From IMG/VR virus record IMGVR_UViG_3300033551_000047, positions 1-22,491 of that record: a DNA stretch of 22,491 nucleotides; one strand, written 5' to 3'. Numbering within the stretch: position 1 is the stretch's first letter; each line of letters begins with the position of its first letter. The notes below the pieces were generated by a model, which searched no databases, was not told where the DNA came from, and worked only from the letters and a program-made list of their open reading frames with translations. A program made the translations under genes and the position numbers. Positions 3,687 through 16,698 of this stretch are shown here, one piece after another. The stretch comes from a virus.

Positions 3687-4229
3687 ATGAATGCCACAAC
3701 CGCATCTGACCTGCGGGACAGGACCACGGCCGCCGCCGCGCTGCTGCGTGTCCGCAACGACCTGAACAGCGCCGTGGACAACCTCTGCAACCGCACGGAC
3801 GGTCTGCGGGACCAGGTGGTCAACATCCGCCCGAAGGGCCTGCTGACCGTGGACGAGATGGCCGCCGCGATCGGCCGGGACCGGAACTACGTGGACAGCA
3901 TCTGGTCCGCGCACGGTGAGACCACCAAGGGCAAGCAGACGCGCGTGCCGGTGGCCGAGAACACGGACGCCAAGGCGGCCCGTACCGCGTACGAACTGCT
4001 GGCCGGCTCGGCGAACGACCTGAAGCGCGCGGCGGCTGCCGTCACCAAGGCTCGTTCCGAGCGTGACCGCGTGGTGGCCGAGGTCTATCGGTCCAAGCTG
4101 ATCGGTCCTTCGGACATCGCTAAGGCGGTGGAAGTGGACCGCAACCACGTACTGCGGATCGCGCGGAAGGCCGGCGTCAAGCCGGTTCACAGGACCAGCA
4201 GCAAGAACCAGTACACCAGCGGCAACTGA
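3687..4229 (+). CDS. Twin helix-turn-helix DNA-binding protein
   Basis: The 180-residue protein has two similar HTH segments. The first (about 52-73) reads LLTVDEMAAAIGRDRNYVDSI. The second (about 138-159) reads LIGPSDIAKAVEVDRNHVLRI. Both share the pattern L-x3-D-x2-A-x-A-x4-DRN-x-V-x2-I, so they look like an internal duplication. A long charged helical region with SERDR and NDLKRAA lies between them. No catalytic domain is visible. A phage regulator with two DNA-reading heads is the best reading; its sites are not shown by the sequence. The start follows a GACAGGGA ribosome binding site. The gene begins a small operon with the next two genes. Confidence 0.8.
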   Translation: MNATTASDLRDRTTAAAALLRVRNDLNSAVDNLCNRTDGLRDQVVNIRPKGLLTVDEMAAAIGRDRNYVDSIWSAHGETTKGKQTRVPVAENTDAKAARTAYELLAGSANDLKRAAAAVTKARSERDRVVAEVYRSKLIGPSDIAKAVEVDRNHVLRIARKAGVKPVHRTSSKNQYTSGN

Positions 4230-6207: not shown

Positions 6208-7176
6208 ATGCCGAAGACTCTGGCCCCCGCGAAAACCCCCGGTGTTGCCATCGCCCGAGTCCTGCGCGGCCTCGGCCTGAAGCAGGGACTGGACTTCCGC
6301 GTACGGGGTGGCTACAAGAACGGTGAACGGTTCGGCACAATCGTGTCGGTCATGGGTAGCAGCGCCAATCAGACGGTGGCCGACAACGCGGACCAGATTG
6401 AGCAGATGGCCGCTGATGCCGGATTCCACTTCAACGTCTCAATCCACTTCACCCCGTCCGGCATGGTGTGGGTGTGGGTCGCAAACCACGGTCAGCGGAC
6501 GCGGGAAACGCACTTCCTGTCCCCGAGCGGCCGGACCGAGAACACTGCCACCGAGGCGCCGCAGCCCGAGCCGAAGCCGGTCATCCGTGCCACGCTCGGT
6601 GAGCCGCGTTCGGCGTTTGGTACCCCGGCGAGCACCACGGACCAGCACCTGTCCGAGCGCCGCAGCGGGAAGGCTGCGCCGTTCAACCCGTACACGGGTT
6701 TCGTCATGCAGGGTTGGGGCCCCCGGGTATGGGGTCGCACCGAAGCCGGTAACCACTGGTTCCACCAGACCAGCGAGCACGGCGCCCGCTTCAACTTGCG
6801 GCACCGCGTGGACGGACCGCAGGGGTCCGGCTGGTACATGGCCGGTCCGGGCATCGCCTCGTCCCTGTTCATGGCGGCCACGCTGAACGAGGCGGTGCCG
6901 GCCGCCGGTGAGACGCTGGACGGCCTTCAGTGGCTGACGCTGCGGATGGACAGCGCGCCGTTCTACTTCCCGAAGGGCCAGCGGGTCCAGGGCGTGGACA
7001 GCCACGGGGTCACGTGCATGGGCACCGTGAACGGGGTGGCGTGGGGTGCGGTGACCGACCCGAGCCACCAGAACTTCGGCCGCACGTGGGTGGACGTTGA
7101 CTGGGACGAGATGCCGCACAACCGTGGCACCGGCCGCAGGTCCCGCCCGTTCACCTCGGACCTGATCAAGCACTAG
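6208..7176 (+). CDS. Hypothetical protein, 322 residues
   Basis: No known family was recognised. The N-terminal part (about 1-100) is a compact alpha/beta region with a predicted helix SANQTVADNADQIEQMAADAGFHF and a strand SGMVWVWVANHG. A Pro/Glu-rich linker follows (about 112-150). The C-terminal part is rich in Trp, Gly and His (WGPRVWGRTEAGNHWFHQ) and ends in a beta-rich segment GVTCMGTVNGVAWGAV-x9-FGRTWVDVDW that could be SH3-like. ATG 6208 is preferred because AAGCAGGA and the leader lie just before it; the frame opens earlier but would run through the terminator. It stands alone between two cassettes. Confidence 0.75.
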   Translation: MPKTLAPAKTPGVAIARVLRGLGLKQGLDFRVRGGYKNGERFGTIVSVMGSSANQTVADNADQIEQMAADAGFHFNVSIHFTPSGMVWVWVANHGQRTRETHFLSPSGRTENTATEAPQPEPKPVIRATLGEPRSAFGTPASTTDQHLSERRSGKAAPFNPYTGFVMQGWGPRVWGRTEAGNHWFHQTSEHGARFNLRHRVDGPQGSGWYMAGPGIASSLFMAATLNEAVPAAGETLDGLQWLTLRMDSAPFYFPKGQRVQGVDSHGVTCMGTVNGVAWGAVTDPSHQNFGRTWVDVDWDEMPHNRGTGRRSRPFTSDLIKH

Positions 7177-7440: not shown

Positions 7441-7800
7441 GTGATCGACGTCAAGAGCGCGAGCAGCCGTACCACAAGCAGCGTGACCCTGACCCTGACG
7501 GGCGCGCCGCCCCTGAAGGTTCTCTACACGAACCGGCAGATCGACCCTGGCCAGGTGTTCTTCAAGTACGAGTACGTGCCGACCACCACGGAAGACGGCT
7601 GGACCGAGCACACGTGGAAACTGGTCTCGGTCCGCGCCACGGGGGCACGGATCCTGAAGCCGGCCGCTGACGGGTCCCAGCGGCTCGGGGTGGAAATGCC
7701 GGCCTACGAACCGGTGCGCCTGAAGGACGTGCCTGAGTGGCTTCTGTCCTTGGCCCGCGAGGTCCGTCCGTCCGGCAGCGTGGACGAGGTGAACGTCTGA
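7441..7800 (+). CDS. Hypothetical protein, 119 residues
   Basis: The N-terminus is Ser/Thr-rich with beta-strand character (SSVTLTLTGAPPLKVLYT), followed by a mixed region with EDGWTEHTWKLVSVRATGARIL. The C-terminus is helical (VPEWLLSLAREVRP). I recognise no family; the strand-rich middle could be a small OB- or SH3-like fold. The GTG start at 7441 follows GAAAGAGA. Its stop overlaps the ATG of the next gene (TGATG), so the two are probably coupled. Confidence 0.7.
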   Translation: MIDVKSASSRTTSSVTLTLTGAPPLKVLYTNRQIDPGQVFFKYEYVPTTTEDGWTEHTWKLVSVRATGARILKPAADGSQRLGVEMPAYEPVRLKDVPEWLLSLAREVRPSGSVDEVNV

Positions 7801-7997
7801 TGGCCCGGTGTCCGGGCGCGGGGATGCGCTGCCAGCACGAGACCAGCAGGGGCTATGGCTGCCTGAATGTCGCCACCAACGGGCCATTCTGTTCGGGGCA
7901 TGACCCACGCAACCAGTGCGGTCGCCCGACACTGGCCGGCACCCCGTGCAAGAGGCGCGCGGGCTGGAACGGCGGGCCCTGCACGAAGCACGCGTAA
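7800..7997 (+). CDS. 65-residue protein with two zinc-finger-like units
   Basis: Eight cysteines and three histidines fall into two similar blocks: an N-terminal block ending in GPFCSGH and a C-terminal block CGRPTLAGTPCKRR ending in GPCTKH. The pattern C-x4-7-C...C-x2-H is repeated, suggesting two metal sites and an internal duplication. Start ATG 7800 overlaps the preceding stop codon. Nucleic-acid or protein binding is likely but not shown. It ends the three-gene operon starting at 7255. Confidence 0.72.
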   Translation: MARCPGAGMRCQHETSRGYGCLNVATNGPFCSGHDPRNQCGRPTLAGTPCKRRAGWNGGPCTKHA

Positions 7998-9898: not shown

Positions 9899-10234
9899 AT
9901 GGCGCAGCACCGAACCACCAAGCTGGCGCACCAGGGCGTTGCAGTCGTCGCAGTGGCCGTAGCCGGCATTGTGGCCGCCGCTCAGAACGGCTACCCGGTG
10001 CACGCCGGCCTGGCGGCCTACGCCGTCTACCTGCTGACCAGCGGCCACGGCCGCCGTGTCGCATCCATCGTTCCGACCGCCCGTCAGGCGCTGCGGGCGC
10101 TCTGCTGGGTTGTCGTGGCGCTCGCCGTCCTCGCCGCCGCTCAGGGGACCACCGGTCCCGGCGGGGCGCAGCTTGGCTTCTGCCTGGCCGCCGCGCTCGC
10201 GACGACGTTGCGACTGACCCGCAACACCCGCTGA
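9899..10234 (+). CDS. Small multi-helix membrane protein
   Basis: The 111-residue protein has up to four hydrophobic segments (about 13-29, 33-46, 66-82, 88-101) separated by short basic loops such as GHGRRVAS and a basic C-terminus RLTRNTR. No conserved catalytic motif is seen. ATG 9899 has AAGGGG about 8 bases upstream. It is the first gene of a group with the membrane/HTH protein and the FtsK-like translocase. In Streptomyces conjugative plasmids, small membrane proteins (Spd type) accompany the TraB translocase, so a similar accessory role is possible but not proven. Confidence 0.7.
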   Translation: MAQHRTTKLAHQGVAVVAVAVAGIVAAAQNGYPVHAGLAAYAVYLLTSGHGRRVASIVPTARQALRALCWVVVALAVLAAAQGTTGPGGAQLGFCLAAALATTLRLTRNTR

Positions 10235-10288
10235 AACGCTGCAACACCCACCCGACAACCGCGTACCACCACTGGAAGGAACAGCCCG

Positions 10289-11326
10289 ATGATCTGGAAC
10301 AGGAAGCAGAAGCAGGACCCGCAGCAGGCGGGCGGCATGGGCGGGGGACAGATTCTCGTCCTCGTCCTGGCGTGCGTCCCGATGGCGGCCGTGGGCATCG
10401 CCGGGGCGGTCGCCACCTTCGTGAACATGGACCGGATCCTGAAGTCAGGCGCTTCCGCGCTCGGCATGGTCGCGGCCGGCGAGGGCGCAACGCTCATCTG
10501 CGCACTCGTCGCACTGGCCGTCACGCTGATGGGCCAGCACACGCCGACCGTGGTTCGTCTCGGCATGTGGCTGCTGCCCCTCGTTGCAGCCGTTGCAGGC
10601 GTTGCGATGGCGTCCGGCACCAACGAGCGCATCATGATGGCAGTCACCCCCATGGCGATGACTGCCGCCGGGGAAGGCGTCGCGTTCGTTGCACGCCGCG
10701 TCGTGGCCCACCGCACCGGCGTGGACATCGAGCAGCAGCGCCGCTCGGGCCTGCTGTTGTGGCACGCGAACCGTGCGAAGAACGGCGGGTGGCTCGGCCA
10801 GCGCATCTCTCAGGCGGCCGTGTGGCGGCTGACCAAGGCGTTCGCCGAGACGGACAACCAGCTGTCCGTTCAGCTCGGTGAGATCCAGCGGTACCGCATC
10901 TCGGACGGCGCTGACGCGAACCTGGCCTACGTCCTGGCCGGCCCCGTGAACAAGGGCCACAAGGCGCCGCAGCGGCCCGCTGTCGCCCCCGCAGCGCCTG
11001 TCCCGGCCCTTCCTGCCCCGAGCCCGTCCGAGCCCCGTACGCGGCCGTCTGCGGACGCCGAGGACGACGACCGTCACGCGGTTGCCGAGCCGAGCGAGCG
11101 TGACGCCGAGAACTTCGAGTGGATCCAGGGGGTCCTGAACGAGGCTCAGGCCACGGTCAAGGCGGACCCGTTGGTCAAGCTGCTGACGGTCGCCGAGGTG
11201 GCCAAGCTGAAGAACTGCGCGGAAGGCACGGTCCGCAGCTGGAAGCACCGGGGGAAGCTGCGGGTGCATGACACCGTGGACGGTTCCCCGATGTTCCACC
11301 CGGACGACGTGGCGAAGCTGGACTGA
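10289..11326 (+). CDS. Four-helix membrane protein with C-terminal MerR/excisionase-type HTH
   Basis: The 345-residue protein has a short basic N-terminus, four membrane-spanning segments (about 21-48, 59-83, 88-109, 114-139), a soluble part with RAKNGGWLGQRISQAAVWRLTKAF, a Pro/Ala/acidic linker (about 225-275) and a C-terminal HTH of about 50 residues: LLTVAEVAKLKNCAEGTVRSW followed by a wing-like KHRGKLRVHDTVDGSPMFHPDDVAKL. That end matches the MerR/excisionase (helix-turn-helix 17) type. A DNA-binding domain tied to the membrane is unusual. It could anchor phage or plasmid DNA near the membrane or act as a membrane-bound regulator. The start follows GGAAGGA. No promoter is seen before it, only a GACAACCGCG leader-like segment, so it may be read from 9780. 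Confidence 0.78.
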   Translation: MIWNRKQKQDPQQAGGMGGGQILVLVLACVPMAAVGIAGAVATFVNMDRILKSGASALGMVAAGEGATLICALVALAVTLMGQHTPTVVRLGMWLLPLVAAVAGVAMASGTNERIMMAVTPMAMTAAGEGVAFVARRVVAHRTGVDIEQQRRSGLLLWHANRAKNGGWLGQRISQAAVWRLTKAFAETDNQLSVQLGEIQRYRISDGADANLAYVLAGPVNKGHKAPQRPAVAPAAPVPALPAPSPSEPRTRPSADAEDDDRHAVAEPSERDAENFEWIQGVLNEAQATVKADPLVKLLTVAEVAKLKNCAEGTVRSWKHRGKLRVHDTVDGSPMFHPDDVAKLD

Positions 11327-11348
11327 CCAGCCGTTTCACCCGCGTTGC

Positions 11349-11379
11349 ACGCCCCGGCAGAAACTTTCTGCGGGGGCGT
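11349..11379 (+). terminator. Terminator hairpin (cassette 12)
   Basis: A 14-bp stem with one G-G mismatch (ACGCCCCGGCAGAA and its near-complement) and the 3-base loop ACT. Confidence 0.7.
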
Positions 11380-11426
11380 TGCGCTGCCTGGCCGCAGCCT
11401 GTAGTGTCTTCCTTGTAAGCAACCGC
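11379..11426 (+). promoter_or_regulatory. Promoter for the 70-residue acidic gene
   Basis: TTGCGC (11379-11384), 17-base spacer, TAGTGT (11402-11407), then TTGTAAGCAACCGC leader. Confidence 0.6.
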
Positions 11427-11447
11427 AGCGAAGGAAGCAGGGACATC

Positions 11448-11660
11448 ATGAACGTATGGGTGGTTCTTAAGGGCGAGTACGCCGATTCTCAGGTGGTCGG
11501 GGTGCTGACGGACCAAACGAAGGCGGAAGACCTCGCCCGACAGACCCGTGACCTCGTATTTGACGACGCGGTCACGGTGCTCGGGCCCTTCCAGCCCGCC
11601 GGCTCGATCGCGGCATGGCTGCCCCGGGAACCGGACGAGTACCCCGAGTACGATGACTGA
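11448..11660 (+). CDS. 70-residue acidic protein
   Basis: The protein begins with a strand MNVWVVLKGEYADSQVVGVLTD, continues with a helix QTKAEDLARQTRDL, and ends in an acidic tail PDEYPEYDD. The opening resembles short phage and bacterial proteins that start with a strand, a YSD/YAD turn and a GVxTD segment (the DUF7336 type), but this is from memory and not certain. The start follows AAGCAGGGA. The bases after its stop (CTGACCAGCCACGATGAC) nearly repeat those after the acidic gene at 3328-3582. Confidence 0.7.
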   Translation: MNVWVVLKGEYADSQVVGVLTDQTKAEDLARQTRDLVFDDAVTVLGPFQPAGSIAAWLPREPDEYPEYDD

Positions 11661-11719
11661 CCAGCCACGATGACGCCCTGGGGCCCGTGCTCGCACCGGA
11701 ACTAAGCGGAATCTGTACC

Positions 11720-11751
11720 GGACCCCCTGGCCTGCTGGCCAGGGGGTCCGT
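11720..11751 (+). terminator. Rho-independent terminator
   Basis: A perfect 14-bp stem, CGGACCCCCTGGCC with its complement, loop TGCT, followed by TTTGTT. Confidence 0.85.
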
Positions 11752-11805
11752 TTGTTCGGAAGTTGCAGTACCCGGAAGGCGTACGGGTGCGCGCGGGTAC
11801 GACGG

Positions 11806-11962
11806 TTGGAACGGCTGGAACGCCCGACCCCCTATCCACCCCCGGCAAATGATCACAAATCGGCCGTTCTCGCACGTGAGAACGGCCGGGAACATGATCG
11901 AGAACGGGCGTTGGAACGGCCCCGGGAACGGCCCCTCACCTGCTGCTCTGTGCGAACGGGGC
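11806..11962 (+). repeat. Cluster of GAACGG-type repeats upstream of the translocase gene
   Basis: Elements with the core GAACGG or one change start near 11806, 11816, 11878, 11888, 11900, 11911, 11924 and 11952, plus an inverted copy at 11861-11871. TTGGAACGGC occurs twice exactly. The spacing varies from 10 to 28 bases. Confidence 0.7.
11861..11888 (+). promoter_or_regulatory. 11-bp inverted repeat, likely operator or cruciform
   Basis: CGGCCGTTCTC and its exact complement flank the 6-base GCACGT, itself nearly symmetric. There is no T-run, and the preceding terminator is 110 bases upstream, so a protein binding site is more likely than a second terminator. Confidence 0.5.
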
Positions 11963-11972
11963 AACATCGTGG

Positions 11973-11992
11973 TACAGTCACCTGGCAACCCC
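11973..11992 (+). promoter_or_regulatory. Putative -10 and leader for the FtsK-like gene
   Basis: TACAGT (11973-11978) matches the -10 used by other cassettes and is followed by GGCAACC. The -35 (TGTGCG region near 11949) is weak, which suggests that an activator or the GAACGG repeats are involved. Confidence 0.4.
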
Positions 11993-12021
11993 TAACCGGA
12001 ACCACCAGGAAGGACAGGACC

Positions 12022-14094
12022 GTGGACGCATTCGACACACCGGCGCTTATCCCCGAGCTGAAACAGAAGCCGCCCGGACCCGGCTTGACGGACCGTCTGG
12101 CGGACCGTCTGGCACTGGCCGGCGAGACGCTGTCACACGGGCTGGACGCGGCCGGCAAGCCGCTCACCGTGCCCGCGCAGCGCTGGTTCAAGGAAGCCGC
12201 CGAGCGGGACGAGAAGCGGACGGACGAGGCGCGGAAGGCGCTACTGGAAGCCAACCGCAACCGCCGGGACGCCATGCGCGATCTTCGCCGGGACCGGAAG
12301 GCGTTCGAGAACGCGCGCGGCGAAGTCGCGTGGTGGAACGTCTTCAACGGTGAGCGCAGCGCCGCTCGCGCCGTGGTCCGTGATACCCGTCAGCTGGCGG
12401 CCGAGGCCCGCTCGGTACGCCGCGAAGCACGTCGCGCGTTCCCGATGACGCTGCCGCAGCTCGCGGTGCGCTGCCACGCCGCGCACCTTGGCGCAACGGG
12501 CCTGTGGTCCCTCGTCTCGGACAGCGTTGCGTCCGGCGTCGCAGTCGGAACGAGCGTTGCAGCGATCGCCTTCAACGTCGCCACGGTGTGGCTCGGTGGC
12601 CGCCACGTGTCGCGCGACACGGTGGGCGAGGCGTTGGAAGCGTTGCAGCCGTCACAGGACGAGCGGCGTCTACTGCAACGCCTGGAACCGAAGGAATGGG
12701 CCCGCGTCGCAGAGCCGCGCGGCCTGTCCGACGTCGTTGCAGGGGCCGCGACGCTGACCAACTCGGGGATCCAGGTGAAGCTGACCCTGAACGGCACCAT
12801 GGACCTGGCCACGTTGCAGAAGAAAGATGCTCAGCTGCGGGCCGCGTTGCGGCTGCGTGAGGATACGCGGATGGAACTGCGCGAGGGGAAGACGGGCGGC
12901 CACGTCCGGATGACCCTGCGTACCCGCAGCACGGCGGACGGGCTGGACATGACGGGCTGGAAGCCGGGTGACGCGTGGGCTGTCAACACGATCACCGGCG
13001 AGACAGTTCCGGTCCCGCTCGGGAAGCGGATCCTGTTCGCGGGGACGACCGGTGCGGGCAAGTCCTGGTCCGCCCGTCCGCTGATGGCCGAGGCGTCCGA
13101 GCACGATGACCACCGGCTGGTCATCTTCGACCGGAAGTACATCGAGGCGCGCAACTGGGAACACCGGGCACGGACGGCCACCGAGCTGGACGAGATGCGG
13201 GCCCTGTGCGAAGAGCTGATCGCCGAGGGCGAGTCGCGGTTGCAGCTCATTCCGCGCGGTGAAGACGTGGTTTCGATCAGCCCGAGCCGGCCGCGCATCA
13301 CCGTCTTCGTGGACGAGGGGGGCGAGCTGATCAGCGACAGCAAGGCGAAGCACCCGAAGGACGAAGAGGGCCGCTCGGACTACCAGGACATCATGACGTC
13401 CATGCGGACCATCGCCAGGAAGTACCGGGCCGCTGAGATCATCCTGGTGTGGTGCACGCAGAAGCCTGCCCTGTCCGGCGAGGGTCACGGCCTGGACTCA
13501 CAGATTGCGGGCCAGCTCGTTCACCGGCTGTCGCTTGCGCTGGCCACCACAACGGACGCTCAGGTGGTTTTCGGCAACGACGCGATCGAGAAGGGGTGGA
13601 AGGCCAACGAGCTGCCCATGCCCGGGTTCGCGCTGTTCCGGAATCAGGAACTCGGCACGAAGTCGGTCCCGCAAATGATGAAGATGCGGGCCATGTCCCC
13701 GGCGAACGTGATCGCGCTGCCGCCCCGTCCCATCTGGCGCCGCGAAACCGGCCGCGCGTCCGCTGCGGACGTCACCGCGCGGAAGGCGATCGAAGCGGAC
13801 GCACAGGCGCTCGCGGCCACCACGCTCGCGGACCCGTGGGCCGGCAAGGACGTGGACACGGACGGCGACACGGTGACGCTGCCTGTCCTCGCGGCCCCGA
13901 AAGAGCGGGTGTCGTCCGAGGACCGGGACGACCAGATCATCCGCATCCTGGAAGATGACCCGTGCCAGACCATGTCCGAGCTGGCCCGGCTGACCGGCGC
14001 GAGCAAGTCCGTGGTGAAGCGGCGGCTGGACCAGATGGAAGTGGACGGCCTGGTCATACGTGACGAGGACGGGTGCTGGCACCCGGTAAGGTAG
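12022..14094 (+). CDS. FtsK/TraB-like DNA translocase
   Basis: The 690-residue protein has a long charged coiled-coil-like N-terminus (about 56-140), one hydrophobic segment (about 157-192), and a FtsK/SpoIIIE-type motor. Walker A is GTTGAGKS at 341-348, Walker B is ITVFVDE with D431-E432, and WCTQKP follows as sensor-like sequence. The C-terminus (about 633-690) is a winged helix, DDQIIRILEDDPCQTMSELARLTGAS and beyond, like the DNA-reading gamma domain of FtsK or TraB. Such motors pump double-stranded DNA in chromosome segregation or in Streptomyces conjugation. GTG 12022 follows AGGAAGGACAGGA. The gene follows membrane proteins and a repeat cluster. A motor role is firm; which DNA it moves is open. 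Confidence 0.88.
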   Translation: MDAFDTPALIPELKQKPPGPGLTDRLADRLALAGETLSHGLDAAGKPLTVPAQRWFKEAAERDEKRTDEARKALLEANRNRRDAMRDLRRDRKAFENARGEVAWWNVFNGERSAARAVVRDTRQLAAEARSVRREARRAFPMTLPQLAVRCHAAHLGATGLWSLVSDSVASGVAVGTSVAAIAFNVATVWLGGRHVSRDTVGEALEALQPSQDERRLLQRLEPKEWARVAEPRGLSDVVAGAATLTNSGIQVKLTLNGTMDLATLQKKDAQLRAALRLREDTRMELREGKTGGHVRMTLRTRSTADGLDMTGWKPGDAWAVNTITGETVPVPLGKRILFAGTTGAGKSWSARPLMAEASEHDDHRLVIFDRKYIEARNWEHRARTATELDEMRALCEELIAEGESRLQLIPRGEDVVSISPSRPRITVFVDEGGELISDSKAKHPKDEEGRSDYQDIMTSMRTIARKYRAAEIILVWCTQKPALSGEGHGLDSQIAGQLVHRLSLALATTTDAQVVFGNDAIEKGWKANELPMPGFALFRNQELGTKSVPQMMKMRAMSPANVIALPPRPIWRRETGRASAADVTARKAIEADAQALAATTLADPWAGKDVDTDGDTVTLPVLAAPKERVSSEDRDDQIIRILEDDPCQTMSELARLTGASKSVVKRRLDQMEVDGLVIRDEDGCWHPVR

Positions 14095-14866: not shown

Positions 14867-15328
14867 ATGACGGGCATCGCTCAGGAAGTGCTGGACCAGC
14901 AGAACCTGGACCGGGCCATCAGGCTGCGGGTGCGCGGCGCGCACTGGAACGAAATCGCGGACGCCTGCAACTTCTCGTCCCCTGCTGCCGCGTTGCGCGC
15001 CGTGGGTACGGCAATGGCCGACGCCACGCGCCGCACCGAAGAGACGGCTGACCAGATGCGCGACACGGCGAACCTGCGGCTGGAACACCTGCTGAAGTCC
15101 ACGCTGGACATGCTGGACGCGGACGCGCCCACGGCCTATGACCCTGACGGGAACGAGCTGACGCCAGATGACCGGGCCGTCAAGCTGCGTGCCGTGGACG
15201 AGGCGCGGCGCCTGATTCTTGACCAGGCGCGTCTGAACGGCGTGGACAAGCCGGTAAAGGACCCGAACGGCGGGGACGACGTCCCGACCATCCGCATCAT
15301 CGGCATGTCCCCGGATGAGCTGCTGTGA
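14867..15328 (+). CDS. Probable terminase small subunit
   Basis: The 153-residue protein begins with an HTH-like segment (NLDRAIRLRVRGAHWNEIADACNFSSPAAALRAV) that would recognise the packaging site. It continues with a long helical region (TADQMRDTANLRLEHLLKSTLDML) of the type that forms the oligomer and ends in a flexible tail. Small terminases vary greatly in sequence, so the call rests mainly on this layout and on its direct overlap (GTGA) with the large terminase gene. GAAGGGACGGA is the ribosome binding site. Confidence 0.78.
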   Translation: MTGIAQEVLDQQNLDRAIRLRVRGAHWNEIADACNFSSPAAALRAVGTAMADATRRTEETADQMRDTANLRLEHLLKSTLDMLDADAPTAYDPDGNELTPDDRAVKLRAVDEARRLILDQARLNGVDKPVKDPNGGDDVPTIRIIGMSPDELL

Positions 15329-16698
15329 CCACGTACGAGCCGCGCGGTGGCGCGCTGGAACTGCTGAAGGCCCGGGACGAAACGGTCCTTGTCTCGGGCC
15401 CGGCCGGCACGGGCAAGTCAGTAGCCGCGCTGATGAAGATTCACACCACCAGCCTGTTGGTGCCGGGTCTGGTCACCCTGCTGTTGCGGCAGACAGCCGC
15501 GTCACTGGGCCCGTCCACGCTGCGTACCTACGAACAGTTCGTGGCCGCTCAGGAACTGGCCTCGGGCCACGTGGCATGGTTCGGCGGCAGCGGCTCGAAG
15601 CCTGCCGCGTACCGGTACACCAACGGGTCTCTGATCATCCCCGGCGGCATGGACCGTCCGGGCAAGTTCCTGTCCATGGACGTAGACCGGGTTTTGATCG
15701 ACGAGAGTAACCAGGTGTCCGTGACCGGGGTGGAAGTCGTGGCCACGCGTCTTCGCGGAAAGTCAGCGACGTACAAGCAGATGGTGCTACTGACCAACCC
15801 GGATCACCCGGATCACCACCTGCTGAAGATGGCGAAGGACGGCCGGGCCCGGCACATCCACTCGCTGCACGAAGACAATCCGTACCTGTTCGAGCGGGAC
15901 GGCACGCCGACGAAAGCAGGCGCGGACTACCTGGCACGCCTCGGGGCGCTGACAGGCGTGCGGAAGCTGCGGTACCTGAAGGGCATCTGGGCCGCCGCTG
16001 AAGGCATGGTCTACGAGGACTGGCGCGAGGACGTCAACGTCATCGACTGGTTCCCCGTGCCGAAGGACTGGCCGCTGTTCCTCACCGTGGACTTCGGTTA
16101 CAACGACGCGTTCGTGTGCCAGTGGTGGCGCACCGACCCGGACGGCCGCATGTACCTGACGCGTGAGATCCACCGTTCGCAGGTACTGGTGGAAGACCAC
16201 GCCGCGCACATCCGCAGCATCATGGAAGAGAACGAGGACACCGAGCCCGCCCCGTACGCCGTGGTCTGTGACCATCAGCTGGAAGACCGGAAGACGCTGG
16301 AACGCCACCTGCGTATGCCGACCGTGCCGGCCAAAAAGGGAATCAGCCGGGGGATCCAGCTCACACAGGCGAGGATGCGCCCGCAGGGTGACGGCAGGCC
16401 GCGCATGTACGCCTTCCGTGACGCGGTACTGGGACGGGACGACGCGGCCAAGGCACGGGACATCCCGCGCGGCTGGTGCGCCGAACTGCCCGGCTACGTC
16501 TGGCAGACGGTCCGGGGCACGGACGGGATCCCGAAGGAAGTGCCCGTGGACCGGAACAATCACAGCCTGGACGCGGGGCGTTACGCGGTCGCTCACCTGG
16601 ACTGGAACGAGGCGGCCAGGCTCGGTAACCCCGCCGCACAGCCGCAGTCCGTACCGGCCGCCAGCGGCTCGCCCTGGTCCGCCCCGGTGGGGCGGTAG
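15325..16698 (+). CDS. Terminase large subunit
   Basis: The 457-residue packaging motor has an N-terminal ATPase with Walker A GPAGTGKS (25-32) and Walker B VLIDE with D126-E127. The C-terminal RNase H-like nuclease has acidic residues D256 (LTVDFGYND), D316 (VVCDHQ) and D416 (NHSLDAGRYAV). It cuts the DNA concatemer and drives it into the head. The GTG start overlaps the small terminase stop. The length and motifs are complete. Unusually, the next gene is a tail assembly chaperone, not a portal. Confidence 0.93.
   Translation: MTTYEPRGGALELLKARDETVLVSGPAGTGKSVAALMKIHTTSLLVPGLVTLLLRQTAASLGPSTLRTYEQFVAAQELASGHVAWFGGSGSKPAAYRYTNGSLIIPGGMDRPGKFLSMDVDRVLIDESNQVSVTGVEVVATRLRGKSATYKQMVLLTNPDHPDHHLLKMAKDGRARHIHSLHEDNPYLFERDGTPTKAGADYLARLGALTGVRKLRYLKGIWAAAEGMVYEDWREDVNVIDWFPVPKDWPLFLTVDFGYNDAFVCQWWRTDPDGRMYLTREIHRSQVLVEDHAAHIRSIMEENEDTEPAPYAVVCDHQLEDRKTLERHLRMPTVPAKKGISRGIQLTQARMRPQGDGRPRMYAFRDAVLGRDDAAKARDIPRGWCAELPGYVWQTVRGTDGIPKEVPVDRNNHSLDAGRYAVAHLDWNEAARLGNPAAQPQSVPAASGSPWSAPVGR

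Follow-up and report, generated by a model that had tools for sequence, protein, structure and literature searches.

The window analysed here, a 22,491-base virus record from IMG/VR (IMGVR_UViG_3300033551_000047), is a fragment of a Streptomyces phage that resembles those of the genus Woodruffvirus (cluster BG). Positions 9899-14094 hold two membrane protein genes, which we call spd1 and spd2, a cluster of short repeats, and the gene of a DNA motor that resembles the Tra (TraB) proteins of Streptomyces plasmids (Table 1). The parts named in the original prediction, a small membrane protein, a four-helix protein with a helix-turn-helix (HTH), a winged-helix motor and a repeat cluster, were all found there.

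The motor begins at the GTG at 12022 and not at the start of the longer mechanical open reading frame (ORF). Its N-terminal part is helical and resembles a coiled coil; a hydrophobic stretch and an FtsK-type ATPase follow, and a winged helix lies at the C-terminus. The P-loop is of the FtsK type, with Walker A (GTTGAGKS) and Walker B (ITVFVDEG) motifs that are both conserved in the alignment. Residues 169-187 in the hydrophobic stretch have a Kyte-Doolittle value of 1.71, compared with 1.95 in pIJ101 Tra; the value falls below threshold in some family members, and two helices are modelled in the stretch. For the motor as a whole, the AlphaFold prediction is weak, with a mean predicted local distance difference test (pLDDT) score of 62, and its use was limited to the winged helix and a general fold match. 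In spd2, four predicted membrane helices (residues 19-51, 54-80, 87-107 and 111-143 in the AlphaFold model) are followed by a helical region predicted to be cytoplasmic, then by a linker predicted to be disordered and finally by the HTH at the C-terminus. This HTH matches HTH_17/MerR with an E-value of 0.001, under the Pfam cut-off, and by fold it comes closest to BldC, RacA and phage Xis. Because a small gene and a strong terminator-like hairpin intervene, the membrane genes and the motor probably form separate transcription units; a single operon of the membrane genes and the motor was rejected on the same grounds.

Table 1. Features of the module and its repeat locus in the window (TM, transmembrane; TRS, TraB recognition sequence).
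Feature	Position	Strand	Basis or remark
Small membrane protein spd1, 111 amino acids, 2 hydrophobic segments	9899..10234	+	phrog_20083; TM prediction
Four-TM membrane protein spd2, 345 amino acids, C-terminal BldC/MerR-like HTH	10289..11326	+	
C-terminal HTH of spd2, residues 298-345, recognition segment GTVRSWKHRGK	11180..11323	+	
Small unrelated gene separating spd2 from the repeats	11448-11660		
Terminator-like hairpin, 14-bp perfect stem, 4-nt loop, T-rich tail	11719..11750	+	sequence
clt/TRS-like locus, GAACGG cores and GGAACG at 11817(+), typical unit TTGGAACGG	11790..11981	+	
GAACGG cores	11809(+), 11864(-), 11880(+), 11902(+), 11914(+), 11926(+), 11954(+)		
11-bp perfect inverted repeat from two repeats, CGGCCGTTCTC/GAGAACGGCCG	11861..11888	.	
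TraB/Tra-type DNA translocase (motor), 690 amino acids, GTG start, pIJ101-type Tra lineage	12022..14094	+	
Candidate membrane segment of the motor, hydrophobic helices, residues 144-193	12451..12600	+	same place in pIJ101 Tra
Walker A region of the motor, AGTTGAGKSWSA	13036..13071	+	alignment
C-terminal winged helix of the motor, residues 632-690	13915..14091	+	HTH_24, E 2.9e-8; pLDDT 81-89
Recognition-helix segment of the motor, GASKSVVKRRLDQM, co-varying with repeat class	13996..14037	+	

The motor groups with plasmid Tra proteins

Sequence comparisons make it almost certain that the motor is a Tra-type protein. By tblastn, it is 51% identical to the Tra of an S. longwoodensis plasmid over 78% and 40% identical to pIJ101 Tra over 94% (657 amino acids); its identity to proteins of phages outside its own group is only ~30%. 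In a tree of 54 proteins the motors of BG phages are nested among plasmid Tra proteins (Shimodaira-Hasegawa-like approximate likelihood ratio test support, 99-100) and are distant from host FtsK-like proteins. In a second tree of 28 proteins, the BG motors and that of L137, a more distantly related phage, form one clade (96/100) within the pIJ101-type group (100/100). Phylogeny against TraB and FtsK, which the original prediction had proposed as a check, placed the motor inside plasmid Tra and not among packaging or unrelated ATPases. Among proteins of solved structure, its best relatives by profile and fold comparison are TcpA, the conjugation coupling protein of pCW3, followed by FtsK. The motor is under purifying selection, with a dN/dS of 0.20 overall and 0.11 in the winged helix.

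Two other identities were rejected. As a chromosomal FtsK, the motor scores 15.8 bits with Pfam FtsK_SpoIIIE against a cut-off of 24 and stands apart from host FtsK in the tree. As for a packaging ATPase, a separate TerL is encoded at 15325-16698 (Terminase_3), and the motor matches a TerL family only with an E-value of 8e-5.

Tra-type motors are found in other Streptomyces phages as well. Mischief19 (L019), JustBecause (L020) and Quantum (L021), some of them ~185 kb, carry a motor from a different plasmid lineage, which groups with other plasmids (pSGL1 and an S. californicus plasmid). The hypothesis that all phage Tra copies share one origin was rejected (approximately unbiased test, p 0.00026; long branches), and so was a common origin of the BG and Mischief19 motors (p 1.5e-6; long branches). 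The Mischief19 motor gene lies near spd2 but in the opposite orientation.

spd2 is related to plasmid transfer proteins

Residues ~16-220 of spd2 are 38-45% identical to Streptomyces plasmid proteins, several of which are annotated as 'conjugal transfer protein'. A genome scan of Streptomyces identified 80 chromosomal spd2-type loci. A long Tra/FtsK-like ORF was found near the spd2-type gene in 50 of them, on the same strand in every case (50/50) and downstream in 49, with a median gap of 0.8 kb. Because G001, one of these genomes, has 14 FtsK_SpoIIIE matches in 10.2 Mb, the chance of finding one in a random 14-kb stretch is ~2%. The order in the 17-kb plasmid L006 is as in the phage: a small TM protein, a four-TM protein and an FtsK-type motor. 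In S. adustus (L078) an spd2-like gene, a small TM gene, a GntR-type gene and a Tra gene whose product is 70% identical to pIJ101 Tra occur together. The stretch between the spd2-like gene and tra there (8089-9533 of L078) contains GGDEF-like and PAPS-reductase-like ORFs, as judged by sequence alone. These data indicate that spd2 is homologous to plasmid transfer membrane proteins and linked to Tra. The spd1 gene keeps its place just ahead of the four-TM gene in the BG phages, and a counterpart holds the same place in L137.

The plasmid 'conjugal transfer proteins' of NZ_CP058978 and NZ_CP109111 illustrate the relationship. They share ~40-45% identity with spd2 over the four-TM domain and the helices that follow, and their genes adjoin a small TM gene and, in NZ_CP058978, a Tra/FtsK gene, as in the phage. 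The C-terminal region of the phage protein, however, is a BldC/MerR-like HTH instead. On the Streptomyces plasmid L008, a gene annotated as RNase adapter RapZ lies two genes ahead of the spd2-like gene, and a stand-alone RapZ C-terminal domain protein is encoded in the window at 2504-2890 (PF22740, E 1.1e-24).

Repeats upstream of the motor co-vary with its recognition helix

The repeat locus sits between the hairpin and the motor start codon. The 315 bp upstream of the motor contain seven GAACGG copies in both orientations, against 0.46 expected and a maximum of three in 300 shuffles, and this is the densest GAACGG cluster both in the window and in TP1604. In the same region of four related phage sequences (L015, L017, L128 and L130), the layout and flanks are kept and GTGACG replaces GGAACG, so that TTGGAACGG becomes TTGTGACGG at homologous positions. 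The repeat core of L137 is TGGACG. Across eleven loci, the upstream counts of the three repeat classes are nearly mutually exclusive.

Each class pairs with its own recognition helix in the motor: GAACGG (class A) with GASKSVVKRRLDQM, GTGACG (class B) with GI/VHKQTxKRSLDRL, and TGGACG (class C) with GTGKSTISNALSRL. The HTH of spd2 (GTVRSW..RGK in BG phages) is unchanged as the repeats change, and the HTH of a phage DNA-binding gene at 3687-4229 (DRNHVxRI) does not track them. Overall divergence does not explain the co-variation, because the Xkcd426 motor, 64% identical to that of the window, keeps the helix and repeat of the window, whereas the L015 motor, 71% identical, does not. As read from these alignments, the co-variation of helix and repeat is the pattern expected if the motor reads the repeats, and a signature of a clt/TRS locus. 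In TraB, helix α3 recognises repeated 8-bp motifs, and clt can adjoin tra, with 7-bp repeats (PMC3583192; PMC4170104). We consider it highly probable that the motor recognises its upstream repeats.

Several plasmids or elements, among them pSlong, pScalif2, L078 and L138, contain GGTTG(C/A)- or TTGCGG-like repeats directly upstream of tra, noticed by eye, which are possibly their own clt loci. An automatic 7-mer scan of plasmid tra upstream regions did not rank these clusters, and they are not used as evidence here.

A natural deletion in phiSAJS1

In phage phiSAJS1, a member of the same genus (L139, NC_029005), the repeats and nearly the whole motor have been lost. Its gp76 (~71 residues; 56051-56266) joins the start of an upstream gene to what is left of a class-B winged helix, its last ~30 residues (HKQTVKRSLER). 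The four-TM gene is split into two ORFs, gp74 and gp75 (55031-55983), by either a real frameshift or a sequencing error. phiSAJS1 forms plaques (PMC4762764). Since it does so without the motor and the repeats, lytic growth on plates does not require the module, and the viability of phiSAJS1 argues against an essential role of the module in replication, in packaging or as an origin. That the motor, the repeats and the membrane gene have decayed together is compatible with one functional unit.

The source phage and its lifestyle

In the part searched, the window is 70-81% identical to Woodruffvirus phages, with matches to TP1604, YDN12, Maih, BabyGotBac, Geonosis, Xkcd426 and others. A RadD-like helicase gene comes first in the window, followed by many small genes and the module; after the module come the terminase, the tape measure and the portal start. 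In the TP1604 record the motor is the last gene, with the record ending just beyond it, and the first gene is the window's next gene. The window therefore spans the conventional end of TP1604, as expected because these phage genomes are described as circularly permuted (PMC5511901).

A plasmid-like prophage segregated along hyphae had been offered as one use of the module. The complete TP1604 genome, the 60-kb L017 contig and the other records contained no Phage_integrase, Resolvase or AAA_31 (ParA) match and no tyrosine or serine recombinase, and the relative Geonosis is described as virulent (PMC11536984). This variant is not supported.

Discussion

The proposal of a Streptomyces-plasmid-type transfer module holds in its core and finds no support in its prophage variant. 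The motor belongs to the Tra family, its four-TM partner is homologous to plasmid transfer proteins, and its recognition helix co-varies with the repeats; all three are properties of the sequences compared. Repeat binding, assembly as a hexamer at the membrane and DNA movement between compartments are steps that we infer from them. The phage would have captured a TraB/Tra-type module for the transfer of double-stranded DNA (dsDNA), with a plasmid or integrative element of Streptomyces as the source. The winged helix of the motor would bind the short repeats (clt/TRS) upstream of its own gene, where the motor would load. It may then assemble as a hexamer at the hyphal membrane, aided by the four-TM and two-TM proteins as Spd aids plasmid TraB, and pump the dsDNA of the phage across septa or into hyphae that are in contact. 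Neighbouring compartments could thereby be seeded during lytic infection. TraB and Spd assemble in septa for the intramycelial spread of plasmids (PMC5133688), and by this analogy the cross-compartment movement of phage DNA is an evenly balanced proposition. The best explanation overall, in which our confidence is at about the midpoint, is that the phage captured a TraB-type module with which it moves its dsDNA across hyphal membranes or septa. More tentatively, a virulent phage may pass naked genomes between compartments or hyphae alongside lysis, using a captured motor, membrane partners and self-specific repeats, with such motors acquired independently at least twice by Streptomyces phages.

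Several observations weigh against such a transfer function. The phiSAJS1 deletion makes the module accessory and dispensable for lytic growth on plates, so that any benefit must be conditional. The co-variation rests on three repeat classes and two changes on the tree, and L137 sits on a long branch. A plasmid match was sought for spd1 and none was found. Membership of spd2 in SpdB/DUF2637 is not supported, the hhalign probability being 1.4%; of 32 members of the spd2 family, only 3 match DUF2637, and weakly (best E 0.013). In addition, the repeats lie within the promoter region of the motor and could serve autoregulation.

This last point leads to an operator account, in which the winged helix or another phage regulator controls motor transcription through the repeats, and the co-variation comes from autoregulation. 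The repeats do lie downstream of the terminator and ahead of the motor start, with the final copy (11954) at approximately the -35 position relative to TACAGT at 11976, and the plasmid tra promoter is likewise regulated. However, at least seven copies over ~150 bp in both orientations exceed the need of an operator and match described clt loci (PMC3583192), and a scan of window genes showed no GntR-type regulator. We consider the repeats improbable as an operator in place of a transfer locus. The two roles are compatible, and a regulatory side role is plausible because of the placement of the last repeat before TACAGT; a sigma-70 consensus scan found no promoter. It is also unlikely, although a stronger possibility, that the motor acts inside the infected cell. 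Working like FtsK at the septal or hyphal membrane, it would clear, segregate or position replicating DNA of the phage (or the host) so that septation does not trap it, or would feed concatemers to packaging. The motor gene lies just ahead of the terminase genes, FtsK is among the fold matches, and a replication role has been suggested for the FtsK-like gene of Geonosis (PMC11536984). Against this, the ancestry of the motor lies in plasmid Tra and not in FtsK, phiSAJS1 replicates and forms plaques without it, and an intracellular role does not need co-inheritance with a plasmid transfer membrane protein. GAACGG also forms a local cluster and was rejected as a dispersed, polar KOPS-like motif: the 62 copies outside the cluster in TP1604, 38 and 24 by strand, are about as many as expected.

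Two further accounts have very little to recommend them. Short-repeat iterons are known in Streptomyces plasmids (pWTY27, PMC3583192), and the repeats could by this precedent be iterons at which an initiator binds a phage replication origin, with the Tra-like gene incidental. It is hard to reconcile this with the viability of phiSAJS1 after it lost the repeats together with the motor, or with a repeat class that tracks the motor helix and not the other HTH proteins examined; we regard it as highly improbable. Phage genes that interfere with plasmids exist, and the module might be a decoy Tra against resident conjugative plasmids, or turn Tra toxicity against the host. The tra (traB) gene of pIJ101 is its kilA gene (PMC4170104). 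A decoy would have no need of membrane partners or of a repeat locus that co-evolves with it, and the full-length purifying selection on the motor also speaks against this account, for which we see a slim chance.

Comparison with known systems places the preferred reading, a captured plasmid transfer module, in context. The phage motor and pIJ101 Tra (KilA/TraB, Streptomyces lividans) share full-length homology, an FtsK-type motor, a hydrophobic segment at residues ~155-190, a C-terminal winged helix and short repeats in cis. Unlike pIJ101 Tra, the phage motor is on a virulent phage, has no GntR regulator or SpdB adjoining it, and forms its own long-branch phage clade. Its repeats are directly upstream of the gene, whereas the pIJ101 clt is near korB (PMC3583192). 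By description, TraB of pSVH1 with its 8-bp TRS/clt is also alike, with a winged-helix motor whose specificity resides in helix α3 and clustered short repeats, although its repeat, GACCCGGA (PMC5133688), differs from those of the phages. The best fold match, TcpA of Clostridium perfringens pCW3, is an FtsK-like conjugation coupling ATPase with ~20% identity to the motor. TcpA belongs to a multi-protein transfer system, unlike the phage motor.

The motor gene itself is already known, being annotated as 'FtsK-like DNA translocase' in Streptomyces phages (phrog_17958, phrog_1358). Of these, phrog_17958 is the motor's own family (1343 bits). The annotation misses the Tra origin, the membrane partner and the repeats. 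Quantum, JustBecause and Mischief19 carry a Tra that was acquired separately. The open-licence papers searched made no mention of a plasmid Tra origin with at least two captures, of the transfer-type membrane partner or of a clt-like locus that co-evolves with the motor.

Phages are not known to spread other than as virions. The hyphae of Streptomyces are connected and divided by septa, which its plasmids already cross by means of TraB and Spd. Virion-free genome spread, if true, would be a bacterial counterpart of plant-virus movement, and a lytic phage with a plasmid motor, a membrane partner and co-evolving repeats allows a direct test of such spread in a multicellular bacterium. In addition, the three repeat/helix pairs that occur naturally could serve as a ready-made code for how TraB-type motors recognise TRS.

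Other features of the window

The RadD-like helicase contains a very cysteine-rich stretch at 1441-1670 (CDCNCLSCGCSDRCKCGIRQCGCRC...) that looks unusual for the family. A small Cys/His-rich protein, possibly a zinc finger, is encoded at 7800-7997 and has counterparts near the module in L015 and Mischief19. ARAGORN called a tRNA-Glu at 6717-6812 (-), antisense within a coding gene, which is probably spurious. The hexamer CAACCG occurs 26 times on the + strand of the window, against 8.5 expected from base composition. It lies 22-33 nt ahead of most early-region genes, with sites upstream of the starts at 325, 2261, 2504, 5377, 6208, 7255, 8084, 8520, 9298, 9899, 10289 and 11448, and is absent ahead of most structural genes. 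It is often preceded by a TATCGT/TACAGT-like -10 element and a GC hairpin containing TTGCA, and in this arrangement looks like a shared phage promoter or leader.

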